A stretch of 64,000 bases of DNA from Deltaproteobacteria bacterium (GCA_016936575.1 JAFGXQ010000172.1:36078-100077); one strand, 5' to 3'; counted from the first letter of the stretch, positions 36,112-44,058 are shown. Numbers and translations: made by a program. Notes: a model not told the origin generated them from the letters alone.

Positions 36112-37230
36112 TTATTCGGCTTCAACTTCTACTTCCACAATCTCTTCGCCAGGGCATGCCAAGCGAACTGATACTTCATTCACAGAACCCGATTCCAATT
36201 GCGCGCATGCTGCGTCACAGAACTGAATGGTGGTGCGAGCAGCGCTGGTCCATGTCCACCCTTCACCTCCGGCACAGCCGGTATCGCGACCGATTTGTGT
36301 GCCGTCAAAGGTCACCAGAACCTGATCCAAGTCCACTTCGTCCTCTCCGAACGCACCCACCTGGAATTCGCAGTTCACAACCACGGTTTCACCGATGGTG
36401 TTCAATGCGTCGGTCAGCGAGGCCGCATCGTCCGCAACCAGGTATGTATTAAATTGAGTTCCGCCTGCCTGCGCGATAGCAGTGAGTTGGTCTTCGGCTT
36501 GTTCGGCACCATCACCGAAACCGATTACAAACGTGCGAATACCGAACACATTCAACAGATTGGTGGTCACCGCAGATAATTCATCAGGTGTCGCACCGTT
36601 GTTCTGGTCAAACTGTCCATCCGTACCGCAGGTATCGGCCCCGTCCGAAATGATCACCAGATAACTGCCGCCGTTGCCGTCAAGAAACACCGGCGCATAA
36701 GACGAGTCGGCATAATTGGTCATCGCCAGCAACAGCGGGGTGGCTGCACTGGGGCCCCAATTGTCGAGTTCGTTGATAATCGTTTGACCATTATTCAGTG
36801 CCACGTCGAGAATTACATTTTCACCCACCGCGCACATATCTCCCCCGCCCTGATTGGTGGTCGTGCTTCGTGCGAACAAATCAAGCCCAAATTCAATATT
36901 CGCATCAAATGCTGTCACCATCTGCTCAATCGCACCGACTGCGTCGTTCCACTTATTGTCATCATCCATAGACAGCGACTTATCCTCAAGAATCATCAAC
37001 CTGCTGGTTACTGCTGTTAAATCCGTCGTGATGGTTTCGCAGGCGACAAAATCACCGTCCGCATCGCTATCGCCGTCGCTGTCCCCGTCCGAATCTCCAT
37101 CCGAGTCACCGTCGGTATCTCCATCCGAATCTCCATCACTTCCCGAGTCCCCGGAATTGTCGTCGCTACATCCCTGCGCCCAAATCACGGCCATCAATAA
37201 TGCGATTGCCAGTATTAACAGTTTTTTCAT
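36112..37230 (-). CDS. vWA domain lipoprotein with Ser/Asp/Gly linker
   Basis: MKKLLILAIALLMAVIWAQGCSDDNSGDSGSDGDSDGDTDGDSDGDSDGD...; MIDAS-like RLMILEDKSLSMDDDNKW. Confidence 0.88.
   Translation of the reverse strand: MKKLLILAIALLMAVIWAQGCSDDNSGDSGSDGDSDGDTDGDSDGDSDGDSDGDSDADGDFVACETITTDLTAVTSRLMILEDKSLSMDDDNKWNDAVGAIEQMVTAFDANIEFGLDLFARSTTTNQGGGDMCAVGENVILDVALNNGQTIINELDNWGPSAATPLLLAMTNYADSSYAPVFLDGNGGSYLVIISDGADTCGTDGQFDQNNGATPDELSAVTTNLLNVFGIRTFVIGFGDGAEQAEDQLTAIAQAGGTQFNTYLVADDAASLTDALNTIGETVVVNCEFQVGAFGEDEVDLDQVLVTFDGTQIGRDTGCAGGEGWTWTSAARTTIQFCDAACAQLESGSVNEVSVRLACPGEEIVEVEVEAE
37058..37143. repeat. Coding Ser/Asp/Gly low-complexity repeat
   Basis: Encodes SGSDGDSDGDTDGDSDGDSDGDSDGDSDAD in the vWA lipoprotein. 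Confidence 0.8.
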
Positions 37231-37730
37231 TTGTCCTTCTCCTTGAGTAAAAATGTTACATCTATTGTACATTTTACATTTATTGAAATTCGCCCGTCAG
37301 TATTTTCAATTTCACTTGAATTTGTTTTCACTTCTACTGCACTTCAAATTAAATCTAACAATAATTTCGTACAGTTATAAATTTCGCCACTTTTTTCCAA
37401 TCTTATTTAACAAGAGTACTTCGTCAATTATGTCGTTCTCATTCTCTTTCTGTGACGAAAAAAAATAAAAAAGACACGCGCTCGAACGAAAAGGCACACG
37501 CGATACGGTTTTTTACACACCCAGGGTGAACAATCACCATTTCACTAAAACACTGGGTCTCCATTGTATCGTATGCGTCCCATCTATCGGTACGGCTATG
37601 CTACTCATGCCTGTAGTTCAGGAATATCAGTCGGCTCTTGTTGTTCAAATCAGGATTTTTCTTTTTTTTTGCAACGCCTTCCCGAAGCGGCCGAGTACCT
37701 CCAGACATCCCATTGCCGACAAGGAGCACC

Positions 37731-38567
37731 ATGAGCGAGCTACAGATTGAAATTCGAATCGACCGACACACCGAGGCTATGTATCGATTTTCCTCATTCC
37801 CGGTAAAAATCGGACGTGATCAGCGCAACGATCTGTCCATCTGTCATAGCGCGATTGCCAGACAACTCTGTACTGCATGGATTGAATCCAACAAACTTAT
37901 TCGACTGGAGGAATGTCCCGACTTGACCAATCCGATTACCGAACACGGAAAGCCGATCATCGGCGGACTCAGTAAACAGCAAATACATGCATCCGTTGGA
38001 CCGGTTGAGTTGATCTTTTCCATTCCTCACACCGGGAAACACCGTAATAAACCAACGCACCGCCGGTTGTTCATCATCGCAGCAGTAGCATTTGCAGCTG
38101 CTGCGGTCATGTTGTTCGCCGGCGTATTTTTTCAAAACCTCAACCCGAAATCCTCGTTATCGAGTATTCAATTTCCTCTCGAAATCCGGTTTCAAATCGA
38201 CAACGAGGCAGCCGCTGCAGCCTCACAAATCGAAATGCTGAAGCAACATGCAACCGCATGTTACTACCGTCTCCCCATGAATATTCACAACCGCCGAAAC
38301 GCCATCGAACAGTTGTTGCGCGTCAGACAAATCGAAATCCGTTCAGGGATATTCAATGATAACACACAAAAGCAAATCCAAACTTGGCGGCGCACGTTTA
38401 ACCGTGCATATCGCGCGGAAGTGGCCGCCTTTATTACGGCTCAGAAATGCATGGACAGCGAACAGATAAAAGAGAGTGCTAAAAATCTCAAGGCTTACCT
38501 GGCTCGCCAGTCTCCTGCTATCTGCCGACAACTCACCTTATACGAACAGGAAGGAAATTCTCCATGA
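37731..38567 (+). CDS. FHA-like domain membrane protein
   Basis: YRFSSFPVKIGRDQRNDLSICHSAIARQL resembles a degenerate FHA core; TM FIIAAVAFAAAAVMLFAGVFF. Confidence 0.75.
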   Translation: MSELQIEIRIDRHTEAMYRFSSFPVKIGRDQRNDLSICHSAIARQLCTAWIESNKLIRLEECPDLTNPITEHGKPIIGGLSKQQIHASVGPVELIFSIPHTGKHRNKPTHRRLFIIAAVAFAAAAVMLFAGVFFQNLNPKSSLSSIQFPLEIRFQIDNEAAAAASQIEMLKQHATACYYRLPMNIHNRRNAIEQLLRVRQIEIRSGIFNDNTQKQIQTWRRTFNRAYRAEVAAFITAQKCMDSEQIKESAKNLKAYLARQSPAICRQLTLYEQEGNSP

Positions 38568-38938
38568 ATGCATTACGATTAAGCATGTTTTTCTTCATCA
38601 TGTCTGCGCAGGCGTGTTCCGGCTCCCAGTTGCCGCAATCGTCCAAAAATGCTTCGTTGCGACAAACCGCTTTGGTGTTCAAAAACGCGGGTGACCACAT
38701 CAACGCAAGCTACTATCTGGAAGCCGCCGTCGTTGAAACAGATCAACCGGACATGGCGTTGTATCAGTTGTTGGTGGAGGAGCAAATTCTCGCCGGTCGG
38801 CTACTGGCTGCACGCGATTCGCTCAAACAGCTGGAAGAAAAGTTCCCGCCGCACCCGTCCATCCAAAATCTTCGAAAGATACTTGAAGCGCTGGTCGGTT
38901 ATCCCTCTGACCGCGCGACACAGGAGGTTTCATTATGA
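38564..38938 (+). CDS. Small lipoprotein with TPR-like helices
   Basis: MNALRLSMFFFIMSAQACSGSQ lipobox; helical remainder; 4-nt overlaps at both ends. Confidence 0.78.
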   Translation: MNALRLSMFFFIMSAQACSGSQLPQSSKNASLRQTALVFKNAGDHINASYYLEAAVVETDQPDMALYQLLVEEQILAGRLLAARDSLKQLEEKFPPHPSIQNLRKILEALVGYPSDRATQEVSL

Positions 38939-39948
38939 TTCCGGGAGGAATATTCAAAGAATCGATTGAAAAATTTCTGCAACCCATTGCCCCGCTCCTT
39001 TGCGATGATACTGTGAGTGAAATCATGATCAATGGGCCAAACGACATCTGGGTGGAAAGAAAAGGTACATTACATGCGACTACACTTTCGTTCCCAAACT
39101 CTCAAGCCTTGCATTGTGCCCTAACCAATATTTCACAGTACTGCGGCAAACCAATTAATGAGGACTATCCAATACTGGAAACACATCTCCCGGACGGTTC
39201 TCGGTTGGAAGCGGTCCTTCCTCCCGTCGCCAAGAATGGCCCAACCGTGGCTATCCGTAGATTCTACAAATCCAAACTCACCATCTCCGATCTCATTACC
39301 AATGGAACCATCAGCGATGAAGCCGCCCTCTTTCTGGCACAAGCCATCTCGCAAAAGAAAAACATTGTCATATCGGGTGGAACCGGCAGCGGAAAAACAT
39401 CGCTACTATGCGCACTGTCTTCATTTTTCATGAAACGAGAACGCATTGTGGTTATTGAAGACACTCACGAACTGGATTTGCATCAACCTCACGTGGTGTA
39501 TCTGGAAAGCCGTTCTGCAGACGAACATGGGCGCGGCGCTATCCGTATCCGCGAGCTGCTTATCGCAACACTCCGCTTGCGTCCAGACCGAATACTCATC
39601 GGCGAAGTCCGCGGAGAAGAAGCGTTGGATTTAATACAGGCAATGACCAGCGGCCATTCCGGATCCATGACAACGGTGCACGCCAACACCCCTACCGACG
39701 CGCTTCGTCGATTTGAAACAATGATACTCAGCAGCCAGTCGGCCATTCCCCATCGCGCAATTTGTTCGCAAATCAACTCAGCCATTGACATTATCGTACA
39801 AATTAACCGTAGTCAGAACGGAAGACGACTGGTGAACGATATCAGCGAAGTACTCCCGCTTTCATCCTCCGGCGATTACCAGGTGCATCCTGAGTTTAAA
39901 CGTTATCTTGACGGTCCACTAAAGAAAGTAAAAAGGAGTGAATCATGA
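38935..39948 (+). CDS. CpaF/VirB11-type secretion ATPase
   Basis: VSEIMINGPNDIWVERKG, NIVISGGTGSGKTSLLCAL (Walker A), VVIEDTHEL, LRPDRILIGEVRGEEALDLIQAMTSGHSGSMTTVHANTPTDALRRFETMIL. Confidence 0.93.
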   Translation: MIPGGIFKESIEKFLQPIAPLLCDDTVSEIMINGPNDIWVERKGTLHATTLSFPNSQALHCALTNISQYCGKPINEDYPILETHLPDGSRLEAVLPPVAKNGPTVAIRRFYKSKLTISDLITNGTISDEAALFLAQAISQKKNIVISGGTGSGKTSLLCALSSFFMKRERIVVIEDTHELDLHQPHVVYLESRSADEHGRGAIRIRELLIATLRLRPDRILIGEVRGEEALDLIQAMTSGHSGSMTTVHANTPTDALRRFETMILSSQSAIPHRAICSQINSAIDIIVQINRSQNGRRLVNDISEVLPLSSSGDYQVHPEFKRYLDGPLKKVKRSES

Positions 39949-40556
39949 ACGAAGAATATTCCTTCGATGAAGAAGAAACACGCGTCGCGATGGTTCACCC
40001 ATCAACCGGAAAGGAAAGCCGGCCCTTATCTAAAAATCCACAATGTTCAATGGATGAGGCCACGATTGCGTGCGCCCCCCGTTTAGTCTCAAATCCATAC
40101 TCAAATAAAACAACAGAAGAATTTATTCCTCTGACACACGTACTTTCCTCTAGTGAACAAACCTGCGTGTGGAAATCAAAACCAAACCACCTCATGCAAA
40201 TGCTCCATCGGTGTCGACATGTTTCCCATCGTAAAAAAGCTGTAATTATGGTGGGCATCGCTTTATTGGTCAGTTTGCTGTTTGTTTTACCCAACGTTTT
40301 CGAATCGAAAGTCGAAAAGCCCTTGGCGCCATCAATTCATTTCGGTGAATCAGAACAAAAAAAACAGAGAAAACCGTTCTCTTCCCCAACAAAATCAGAA
40401 GGACAGCCATCACTTCACCGCGCTATTCGACTGCTTCGAGAAGGAAAACTCCAACACGCCCGGCAGGAATATGAACAGCTGTCCATTCAATATCCCGACA
40501 GTGACTCGTTTGCCATCTCCGTATCGATTTTGAATGCTCAGGAAAACCAGCTATGA
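39945..40556 (+). CDS. Single-pass membrane protein with C-terminal TPR-like helices
   Basis: TM AVIMVGIALLVSLLFVLPNVF; HRAIRLLREGKLQHARQEYEQLSIQYPDS. Confidence 0.72.
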   Translation: MNEEYSFDEEETRVAMVHPSTGKESRPLSKNPQCSMDEATIACAPRLVSNPYSNKTTEEFIPLTHVLSSSEQTCVWKSKPNHLMQMLHRCRHVSHRKKAVIMVGIALLVSLLFVLPNVFESKVEKPLAPSIHFGESEQKKQRKPFSSPTKSEGQPSLHRAIRLLREGKLQHARQEYEQLSIQYPDSDSFAISVSILNAQENQL

Positions 40557-41236
40557 AATATATCGGTGTTTTTTTAATCATTCTGTTGGTGGGGTGTACA
40601 TCCAAGCCGGTTTATAGGGAATTCGCTGTTGATGTCAATGTGGTTGATGATGAGCAAATTCCCGTGAGTTCAGCGATTGTCACTTTTTCAACCCTGGATT
40701 CAAAAAAACCCTTCCCCAAAAAACAAAGGACCGACAAAAACGGAACGGCACATTTTTCTTTCTGGGGAACTAAGGGCGAAAGTCTCAAGGCAAGTGTACA
40801 GTGCCCGAACAGATGGACTCCGGCATCAGACACACTGGTGGAACTGCGTTCACGAGCATTGACAACCATAGACGGAAAAAAAATAAAACCGGAACAAATC
40901 ACTTTTGTATGCATCCCACCCCAAAAAAAACATGTAGTGGTCGTACAAACCCGCGGTGCACATCGCTTGACGGTGAAATACAACGGTAAAAGCGCTGCCA
41001 TGACCGACGCACAAGGCATCGCTCAATTCGCTATACAGGGAGCACCGGGACAACTGATACAACTGGCGCTCGACACATCATCCCAACCACATCTTCGTCC
41101 CCAGATGCCCGTGCGCCAGCTGACGCTCCCGGCGAAACGTCGTTTTCTGATATTTGAACAAACCTTCTCAACCGTCTCGCCACCAAAAAAACGCCGAAGA
41201 AATAGTCGCCGAGTTGGGGTTCCGAAACGATTATAG
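40553..41236 (+). CDS. Lipoprotein with Ig/carboxypeptidase-regulatory-like beta domains
   Basis: MKYIGVFLIILLVGCTSKP lipobox; VDVNVVDDEQIPVSSAIVTFSTLDSKKPFPKKQRTDKNGTAHFSFWG. Confidence 0.7.
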   Translation: MKYIGVFLIILLVGCTSKPVYREFAVDVNVVDDEQIPVSSAIVTFSTLDSKKPFPKKQRTDKNGTAHFSFWGTKGESLKASVQCPNRWTPASDTLVELRSRALTTIDGKKIKPEQITFVCIPPQKKHVVVVQTRGAHRLTVKYNGKSAAMTDAQGIAQFAIQGAPGQLIQLALDTSSQPHLRPQMPVRQLTLPAKRRFLIFEQTFSTVSPPKKRRRNSRRVGVPKRL

Positions 41237-41300: not shown

Positions 41301-41705
41301 TCAGCTATTGATTTCGCGACGAATATCGCGAATCACCTCAATTAATTTTCGATAAATAAATTGATTCAGGTTTCCCGAAGACACGATCACGGATAAAAAC
41401 AAGTCGTCTCCCATACATACCGTCACGCTATCGAGATGATCGGCATGAATCTCCATCTGTTCAAGTTTTCCGAGTGAAAGAGACTGAAACGCGCGGGTCG
41501 CCGTAGACACGACCACACCAATATGCGCAGCCGCCAACCGAGTGTCAAAGGGATCAAGATACGAATGATAGTCGATGGTCTCTCCTTCGGCATCATAAAA
41601 AACCGCTGCTTTGAACCCGGGACAAACACCGTCAATATGGGAGAGAATATCAGCGAATGCGGAACGATCCGTATCTCGATGTAGCGTGCCGTCAGACTCC
41701 ATCAT
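41301..41705 (-). CDS. Roadblock/LC7-like domain protein
   Basis: FADILSHIDGVCPGFKAAVFYDAEGETIDYHSYLDPFDTRLAAAHIGVVVSTA. Confidence 0.6.
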   Translation of the reverse strand: MMESDGTLHRDTDRSAFADILSHIDGVCPGFKAAVFYDAEGETIDYHSYLDPFDTRLAAAHIGVVVSTATRAFQSLSLGKLEQMEIHADHLDSVTVCMGDDLFLSVIVSSGNLNQFIYRKLIEVIRDIRREINS

Positions 41706-41719
41706 AACGCTATAAACAT

Positions 41720-42691
41720 CTAGTGCGCAGATTCTGCGAAGTTACTGTTATTAATTTCAATGTCATAGATAAAAACATTCCCCCGATTGTAGACATCATC
41801 AATTAGCTCCGAAATATATTTCTGTCGTTCAAAACTGAATATCTCATTTTCCAGCGTCTTTCGAGCGTCAGTAAATGAGATATCGACTGCCGGCTCCTCA
41901 TTTTTTACAAATATCACATGGTATCCGAATTTGGTTTTTATCGGTTTGGATACTTTTTGTCCGGGATAATCGATCGCGAACGTTCCCTCAACAAACGGCT
42001 TGACGAACCCAGTGTTTCTCTGGTCGAAGGGAGGCAAATCCTCCACTCGAATTTTGGTACCGTCCGCACCGACCGTGGCAACCGCTTGTCGAAACGCTTT
42101 TTCAGAGTCGGCATTAGCTGCTGCAATACTCATCTCTCGGGCAATACGCTTTGCATCGTTATCGGAGTACAAACCGTCTCCCGTCATCGCAAGTGCATGA
42201 ACAACATCTCGCTGAGCGCCATGCACAAAACGAAATTTCTGCGATTCATACCTTTTTTTCAACGTTTCAAGCGGAATACTCTTTTCGGTGAATGCTTCGC
42301 CTTCTTTTTTCAAATACGCCAGCGCCAACGCCTTTTTAAATTCTGAAATAACCGTTTTATCACGAGCATATCCACGGCGACGCGCCTCTTCCTCCAGCAA
42401 ATAGAAATCGATTGCCTCTGCCAACGCTTCCTCTTTCGACAACTTCTGTTGTAATTGCTTCGCCTGAAATTCCACTGTTTCGGGGTAGATAGGAATACCG
42501 TTCACTTGTGCCAGAACCATAGAATCGTTCAGTTTTTTCGCTTTGATATGGCTATCCCATGCCTCGATATTGGTGGACACATTCGGCGCCGAATCCTCAG
42601 ATGAACATCCGATTGAAGAAGCACAGCAGACAACCCCTAAAATAATTACCGAAAATTCAGTGTGAAAATGCTTTTTAAAATGCTTTTTCAT
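41720..42691 (-). CDS. Parvulin-type peptidylprolyl isomerase lipoprotein
   Basis: Lipobox SIGC; VNGIPIYPETVEFQAKQLQQKLSKEEALAEAIDFYLLEEEARRRG; GFVKPFVEGTFAIDYPGQKVSKPIKTKFGYHVIFV. Confidence 0.85.
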   Translation of the reverse strand: MKKHFKKHFHTEFSVIILGVVCCASSIGCSSEDSAPNVSTNIEAWDSHIKAKKLNDSMVLAQVNGIPIYPETVEFQAKQLQQKLSKEEALAEAIDFYLLEEEARRRGYARDKTVISEFKKALALAYLKKEGEAFTEKSIPLETLKKRYESQKFRFVHGAQRDVVHALAMTGDGLYSDNDAKRIAREMSIAAANADSEKAFRQAVATVGADGTKIRVEDLPPFDQRNTGFVKPFVEGTFAIDYPGQKVSKPIKTKFGYHVIFVKNEEPAVDISFTDARKTLENEIFSFERQKYISELIDDVYNRGNVFIYDIEINNSNFAESAH

Positions 42692-43989
42692 TATCGAACT
42701 CGAACCATCGTTCCCTTATCATTCGCGGTTGAATACACAGACCACCATCCCGCAGGTACCGAAGGCGCCGTCCATCGATAAAACCATTCCGCGTCGGCCG
42801 GCGCCATATTCACGCAGCCGTGGCTTTTTCTGTTTCCAAATTTATTATGCCAGTAAACCGCATGCAACGCATAATTTTCATGAAAAAACTGTGTCCACGG
42901 CACATCCTGCAAGGAATACAGTTTCCGTTCTTCCGTCGGCTCAATCACCTCGGAGTCCGAATCCAACTCTTCTTCCTCATCAGTGTTGTCCATGGCAATC
43001 GCAGCCACCTTTACCCAAATACGAAATTGTCCCCTCACCGTTTTCGACGCGCCGTATCGTCCAGTAGATACCATCGTGGCGTACACCGGTTCATCCCCCA
43101 CATATGCAGTAACGATTTGCTGATTCACATCCACGTCGATCCAGCGTTCGTCATCGGCTATCCCCTCCGGCCGGGTTGCATTTGTCGTCACACGAACATC
43201 TTTTCCTGAAACCCAAAGACCATCCGACAGTTGATAAAAATGTTTCTTTTTCACGTCGACCTGCCCCTGCACCGCAAAAAAATCATATCGGCTCAGTTTT
43301 CGAACACGCTGCTCTTTTTGCTCGGCAGGCTCTTGATATGCCCATGCCTCCTGTGAGTTCACCCACCCTACCGGCCATTGCTGGTCGCGACTGACGGGCA
43401 CCCCCTGAAACGTGGAGACACGCCCGGAAACCCGCGCCGCATAGGTGGGAATCAACTTTCCTTCAGGAGTTTTAAAATACTTTTCGCCGTCGATGGATAC
43501 CCGCTTTTCCACACCGAAACCGAACCCCTTGAAAATTTCGCGCGTTTCTTCAACCCACCCATGACTCGACCACTGGTATTCAATCGCCGTTTCCTTTATG
43601 AACGCATATGGCCACGGAGTGACTGCATCGTTTTCCATCGGAGGCTGTTCGATTGCAGCGGGCGCGTCTTCAATCAGTGTGACCCCATTCCCACACACCC
43701 ACCCTTCTTCGTAAACCCGATACCACACATCTCCAGAACAACCATCTCCCTCTTTGCTTTCATAGATGGGCAGACGAGAACCTTTTACAGCCATTCCGCG
43801 CAACTTGTATTTTCCAGAAGGTCCTCGCTTAATCGCCACCCGATGACGCTCTACCAGCAACGAGCCGCCTGAATGCGCCGAAGTGGATGCTCGTTTCGAC
43901 TGTGCCTGTAATGTCCCGGAAGCCATTAACCCAAGCGCTCCAAACATCAACATCGCCGCAATACCTATTGTAATTCTGCGTGTACCCAT
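42691..43989 (-). CDS. L,D-transpeptidase (YkuD family)
   Basis: HAVYWHNKFGNRKSHGCVNMAPADAEWFYRW active site; RWIDVDVNQQIVTAYVGDEPVYATMVSTG. Start placed at MGTRRITIG. Confidence 0.9.
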   Translation of the reverse strand: MGTRRITIGIAAMLMFGALGLMASGTLQAQSKRASTSAHSGGSLLVERHRVAIKRGPSGKYKLRGMAVKGSRLPIYESKEGDGCSGDVWYRVYEEGWVCGNGVTLIEDAPAAIEQPPMENDAVTPWPYAFIKETAIEYQWSSHGWVEETREIFKGFGFGVEKRVSIDGEKYFKTPEGKLIPTYAARVSGRVSTFQGVPVSRDQQWPVGWVNSQEAWAYQEPAEQKEQRVRKLSRYDFFAVQGQVDVKKKHFYQLSDGLWVSGKDVRVTTNATRPEGIADDERWIDVDVNQQIVTAYVGDEPVYATMVSTGRYGASKTVRGQFRIWVKVAAIAMDNTDEEEELDSDSEVIEPTEERKLYSLQDVPWTQFFHENYALHAVYWHNKFGNRKSHGCVNMAPADAEWFYRWTAPSVPAGWWSVYSTANDKGTMVRVR

Positions 43990-44058
43990 TCCCTTTTCCT
44001 TGAAAGTAGAAAATGTAAATCTGTTGGACGGTTTTCGCCAGTGAAACATTCACCCGGT

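Follow-up and report, generated by a model that had tools for sequence, protein, structure and literature searches.

We found that five genes in the genome of a Deltaproteobacteria bacterium probably form the distal half of a two-ATPase Tad (type IVc) pilus system, set apart from the rest of that system. The genes are located at positions 37731-41236 of the window, that is, the whole stretch of 64,000 nucleotides analysed here (GCA_016936575.1 JAFGXQ010000172.1:36078-100077). The system was recognised from its gene content and gene order, the paralogy of its two CpaF ATPases (CpaF1 and CpaF2), and the single TadB/TadC pair of the genome.

The five genes lie on the plus strand and each of their four junctions is an exact 4-nt ATGA overlap (Table 1); the coordinates are exactly those given in a preliminary description of this DNA. 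Since the same five-gene order recurs in six loci of the same family (L054-L059), with junctions that are mostly 4-nt ATGA or GTGA overlaps, the overlaps are not due to chance. The neighbouring genes on both sides are on the minus strand, so the unit consists of the five genes. A scan for promoters and terminators gave results no better than those from shuffled sequences.

Table 1. Features of the five-gene operon and its surroundings in the window
Feature	Position	Strand	Length	Description
Upstream neighbour	36112-37272	-		putative lipoprotein, vWA-like in appearance, with a long SDGDSDGD linker; only a weak Pfam match
Gene 1	37731-38567	+	278 aa	predicted model: cytosolic FHA domain (residues 4-97), one TM helix (110-135), periplasmic helical domain (165-274)
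FHA domain of gene 1	37740-38021	+		from alignment, model and fold search
Gene 2	38564-38938	+	124 aa	short TPR-type lipoprotein, lipobox Cys18
Gene 3 (CpaF2)	38935-39948	+	337 aa	compact CpaF-type ATPase
Walker A of CpaF2	39376-39402	+		GGTGSGKTS
Walker B region of CpaF2	39580-39615	+		RPDRILIGEVRG
His box of CpaF2	39670-39684	+		TTVHA
Gene 4	39945-40556	+	203 aa	cytosolic N-terminus, one TM near residue 100, periplasmic TPR-like tail
Gene 5	40553-41236	+	227 aa	lipoprotein, lipobox Cys15, two tandem Ig/CNA-B-like beta domains
Downstream neighbour	41301-41705	-		
Two genes downstream of the operon	41720-42691 and 42691-44049	-		PPIC-type prolyl isomerase and YkuD L,D-transpeptidase

As had been noted before, no tadB, tadC, secretin or flp gene is adjacent to the operon in the window. 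The genome, a 252-contig draft that is 94.9% complete, carries them on other contigs. Searches with profiles built from the genes of relatives located the secretin on contig C222 (21661-22854; PF00263, 8.9e-31) and CpaB on contig C59 (19207-19914; profile, 1.3e-52). CpaB lies beside an A24 peptidase (Peptidase_A24, 7.2e-20), and next to these two a Flp-like pilin (Flp_Fap, 4.9e-4) and a TadE-like protein (3.4e-4), both scoring below the curated cut-off; a 539-aa protein with no Pfam match on the same contig is TadG-like by position and N-terminus only. Contig C233 carries an FHA-fused CpaF1 (517 aa), TadB and TadC. At locus L040, the platform proteins matched PF00482 (TadB, 1.3e-9; TadC, 1.5e-19), and CpaF1 matched FHA (4e-8) and T2SSE (4.5e-64). 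The T2SSF search of the genome revealed one TadB/TadC pair only, the other strong matches coming from two platform proteins, each of two domains, on C33 and on C40. The genome thus encodes two CpaF-type ATPases as against one TadB/TadC pair. A search with PF16968 (TadZ/CpaE) gave no match in this genome and none in the control genomes either. In five genomes of the same family (G001, G003, G007, G012 and G013), the secretin match contains one stop (TGA, TAA or TAG). The preliminary description had considered that a Tad locus elsewhere might lack a cpaF of its own, which would make the window ATPase its split module. In fact an FHA-fused cpaF is present at that locus, which makes the window ATPase an additional CpaF of a distinct kind and not the displaced sole one.

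Related families have these five genes, in unchanged order, as the tail of a ten-gene Tad locus. At locus L051 the order is CpaB-CpaC-CpaF1-TadB-TadC-FHA-TPR lipoprotein-CpaF2-TM/TPR-lipoprotein; all ten genes occur in this order at ten loci (L044, L046, L048, L049, L051, L173, L177, L180, L183 and L184), and several further loci have a near-complete set. At L047 the lipoprotein match is located upstream, near CpaB. In group f29 (G065 and G136), the genes from CpaB to the TPR lipoprotein are together and CpaF2, gene 4 and the lipoprotein are elsewhere; the locus has thus been broken at more than one point.

CpaF2, the product of gene 3, is a compact CpaF-type ATPase with intact catalytic motifs, as was first described. 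It matched PF00437 at 2.4e-52, and its best NCBIfam match was the TadA-family model TIGR03819 at 3.5e-81, a score below that model's own cut-off. The closest PDB chains were CpaF (1.7e-75) as against VirB11 (2.2e-34). A VirB11-type conjugation ATPase was considered for this gene and was rejected on these scores. The window copy has an intact Walker A, Walker B and His box; among the CpaF2 rows checked, Walker A was intact in 57 of 57 and the Walker B region in 55 of 57. In the window CpaF2, about 14 residues precede the NTD, too few to accommodate a three-helix bundle or an FHA domain. In most CpaF2 orthologues whose reading frame does not extend in from the upstream side, this segment has 11-19 residues, compared with a median of 118 in other CpaF proteins. 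Yen et al. divided CpaF into classes I-III, of which class I, with the three-helix bundle, is the minimum architecture (PMC12019362). CpaF1 is a class III (FHA) protein. CpaF2 has the NTD and the ATPase domain in common with these classes, but unlike the minimum architecture it has no three-helix bundle and therefore falls outside classes I-III. Since C. crescentus CpaF without the IDR and the three-helix bundle was not expressed (PMC12019362), CpaF2 must have another means of stabilisation or a different function.

In a tree of 128 CpaF sequences, the 37 compact CpaF2 formed one clade against the 91 others, with an SH-aLRT value of 100 on both sides (the tree is unrooted), and the FHA-CpaF1 of these loci fell among ordinary CpaF. 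A CpaF2 profile scan of contigs, which yielded mostly ordinary CpaF from many phyla, was used for the tree and not as a census. For the census, CpaF2 was defined by a score of >440 bits with the CpaF2 profile, and lower-scoring CpaF were counted as CpaF1. CpaF2 was found in 54 of the 238 sampled genomes of the phylum, at least 50 of which (of the 54) have CpaF1 too; in four of the 54, CpaF1 was not among the matches listed at the cut-off used. CpaF1 is located 3.0-5.3 kb upstream of CpaF2 on the same strand in at least 28 genomes, and 15-18 kb away on the other strand in at least five. In some families, CpaF2 is monocistronic and far from Tad genes. One of these is family f8 (L060:9648-10787; L166:1823-2962), in which CpaF2 has no Tad neighbours and a Kil-like CpaC-FHA/CpaF-FHA locus is present elsewhere (L165). 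Rhizobium lusitanum and a Planctomycetaceae genome each contribute one member to the CpaF2 clade, and on their contigs there is a Tad set with FHA-CpaF1 as well. On the Rhizobium lusitanum contig (L084:1677-11107), the compact CpaF2 gene is divergent from the Tad set with FHA-CpaF1. CpaF2 of this species possibly reflects lateral spread.

Single-protein Pfam/NCBIfam scans yielded no name for genes 1, 2 and 4, and a direct Pfam scan of gene 1 gave no FHA match. Orthologues of gene 1 in other families match PF00498 at 1.9e-9 and 7.3e-15, and the family profile matched FHA structures in the PDB at 8e-11. The best PDB fold matches of the predicted model (mean pLDDT 87.3) were FHA domains, and YscD/PscD of the T3SS was also present. 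On this modelling gene 1 is predicted to have the FHA fold, and its earlier designation as an FHA-like protein with a TM segment was borne out. According to the fold match, the YscD/PscD inner-ring proteins of the T3SS have a cytosolic FHA fold like gene 1, and they also have one TM and a periplasmic part. Unlike in YscD/PscD, the model of gene 1 has a helical periplasmic part, in which no ring-building domain was recognised. In the FHA alignment the GR motif is kept; phosphothreonine binding by gene 1 is uncertain because the Ser of SRH is replaced by Ala in the window family. The binding Ser is retained in the orthologues of L051 ('SISRH') and L045. A PP2C phosphatase gene (L121:8271-9095; 1.7e-10) is present inside a two-CpaF Tad locus of an uncultured bacterium, and a Ser/Thr kinase gene (L088:1-915; 4.4e-38) adjoins such a locus in a Planctomycetaceae genome. 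Their presence would be consistent with an FHA-phosphothreonine circuit.

Gene 4 encodes a single-TM protein with a TPR-like tail, in agreement with the previous assignment. Its N-terminus, before the TM, contains the acidic-Thr motifs EEETRV and SEQTCV. Such motifs, as defined after viewing the sequences, number 50 in the gene 4 orthologues counted, which are related to one another, against 14.7 +/- 3.7 in composition-preserving shuffles; 0 of 1000 shuffles reached 50. The gene 4 orthologues of sister families (for instance L184:13200-14654) are longer and match the FHA profile of gene 1, with PF00498 just below the cut-off. Comparison of the sequences suggests that gene 4 of the window family lost an FHA domain.

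The two remaining products had been described as a small TPR-like lipoprotein (gene 2) and a beta-domain lipoprotein (gene 5), and both descriptions were confirmed. TPR_19 matched the window copy of gene 2 at 0.039 and the L051 orthologue at 6.7e-11, and the PDB matches were mainly TPR proteins. Gene 5 matched Big_1 at 1.7e-8, and its predicted model (pLDDT 86.4) gave fold matches of low TM-score to Ig-like domains of Gram-positive pilins and adhesins. The lipobox Cys is invariant across the gene 2 alignment and across the gene 5 alignment. TadD is the basis of a pilotin analogy for gene 2 (PMC10499894). TadD/PilF pilotins are TPR lipoproteins to which the C-terminus of the secretin binds; a TPR and a lipobox are present in gene 2, of which the window copy has only 124 aa. 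By this analogy, gene 2 is a candidate TadD-like pilotin.

The system has CpaF, TadB, TadC and a secretin with a pilus N-domain in common with Tad/type IVc systems (Caulobacter Cpa and Aggregatibacter/Pseudomonas Tad-Rcp), as well as a CpaB/RcpC-like protein, a Flp pilin, an A24 peptidase, a TadE-like protein and a TPR lipoprotein. Unlike those systems, it has two CpaF paralogues differing in architecture, FHA proteins and an Ig-like lipoprotein, and its genes are split over four loci; multi-locus Tad has been called very rare (PMC6668835). Leaving aside TadZ/CpaE, for which the control genomes gave no match either, all Tad features that were tested are present except the single motor ATPase per system that is reported for studied Tad pili. 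Compared by genes alone, the Kil system of Myxococcus xanthus (PMC8460266, PMC12075869) has an FHA-fused CpaF, several FHA proteins, outer membrane lipoproteins and dispersed gene clusters in common with the system described here. The gene order differs from that of Kil, and unlike Kil there are a second ATPase and a TPR lipoprotein in the window and a TadG-like protein assigned by position. In the open-access papers searched, no report of a compact CpaF2 was found for Kil or for the Kil-like systems of Bradymonadales. Type IVa pili likewise use two paralogous ATPases, PilB and PilT, for one platform, and the two share PilC. Unlike PilB and PilT, the pair described here is of separate origin, both ATPases belonging to the CpaF/TadA family.

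Since two catalytically intact CpaF paralogues occur with one platform pair, two motors would operate on one machine, and we infer from the genomic arrangement that CpaF1 and CpaF2 serve the same pilus. Both the FHA-fused CpaF1, taken as the usual assembly motor, and CpaF2 would act on the cell's one TadB/TadC platform. CpaF2, which has no N-terminal regulatory part, would most likely be a dedicated second motor, and retraction or disassembly is the favoured direction. Gene 1 and gene 4 may constitute an inner-membrane regulatory or scaffold pair that couples the phosphorylation state to the motors, and FHA proteins may switch between the motors. Gene 2 would serve the secretin as a TadD-like TPR lipoprotein with a putative pilotin role, and gene 5 would be a beta-domain lipoprotein of the outer membrane. 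We put forward tentatively, as a possibility that falls short of an even chance, that a two-motor Tad evolved independently, in which the FHA-gated CpaF1 extends, CpaF2 retracts, and phosphothreonine switches between them through FHA and Thr-motif proteins. A search of the open-access literature for a Tad system with two CpaF/TadA yielded only a few usages of cpaF1/cpaF2 or tadA1/tadA2 (Sinorhizobium, Micrococcus luteus), which we take to denote separate tad clusters. Since the Tad motor that has been studied serves both functions (PMC12019362), a pilus of this kind could do without a retraction motor.

CpaF2 might instead be a regulatory or assembly ATPase, which forms mixed hexamers with CpaF1 or drives assembly of the part made up of secretin, lipoproteins and FHA proteins and does not itself move pilins. 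CpaF2 sits with accessory genes and not with platform genes, stays with genes 4 and 5 when loci are split, and is without the three-helix bundle, all of which favour such a role. However, its catalytic motifs are conserved and its homology to CpaF-type motors is close, and we regard this alternative as rather unlikely. Much less probable is an ordinary Kil-type predation system of which the ATPase module has been split, with CpaF2 as a redundant duplicate. The traits of Kil (PMC8460266) include an FHA-fused CpaF, a content rich in FHA, lipoproteins and gene clusters that are dispersed, and Kil-like systems have been reported in Bradymonadales, but descriptions of Kil give it one ATPase and neither TadD nor TadG (PMC8460266). 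Moreover, CpaF2 constitutes a distinct clade with synteny conserved across many families and is not a recent duplicate.

The preliminary description raised the possibility that the five genes make up a minimal or orphan secretion or pilus machine. The isolation of the operon from platform, secretin and pilin genes agrees with this, as does family f8, in which the single CpaF2 gene is truly isolated. Nevertheless, the idea is very improbable and is largely refuted by synteny, since relatives join the same five genes to the full Tad set; in addition, the genome itself has the rest of that set at three other loci, and the operon is without a platform protein. The terms 'orphan' and 'minimal' were therefore given up, whereas the picture of an ATPase-powered envelope machine with a cytosolic FHA domain and two lipoproteins, as part of a split pilus system, was retained.

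We thus prefer the two-ATPase Tad system as the explanation of this operon. Tad pili have been described as single-motor systems, and the way in which one CpaF both extends and retracts the pilus is still to be explained (PMC12019362). Two CpaF with one platform, in a widespread lineage, would allow each direction to be tested separately, and the two-CpaF design would parallel PilB/PilT. For Kil, the killing system of predatory bacteria, signalling through FHA proteins is so far a proposal (PMC8460266). With the system described here, phosphorylation would become an input to a contact-dependent machine that is related to Kil.
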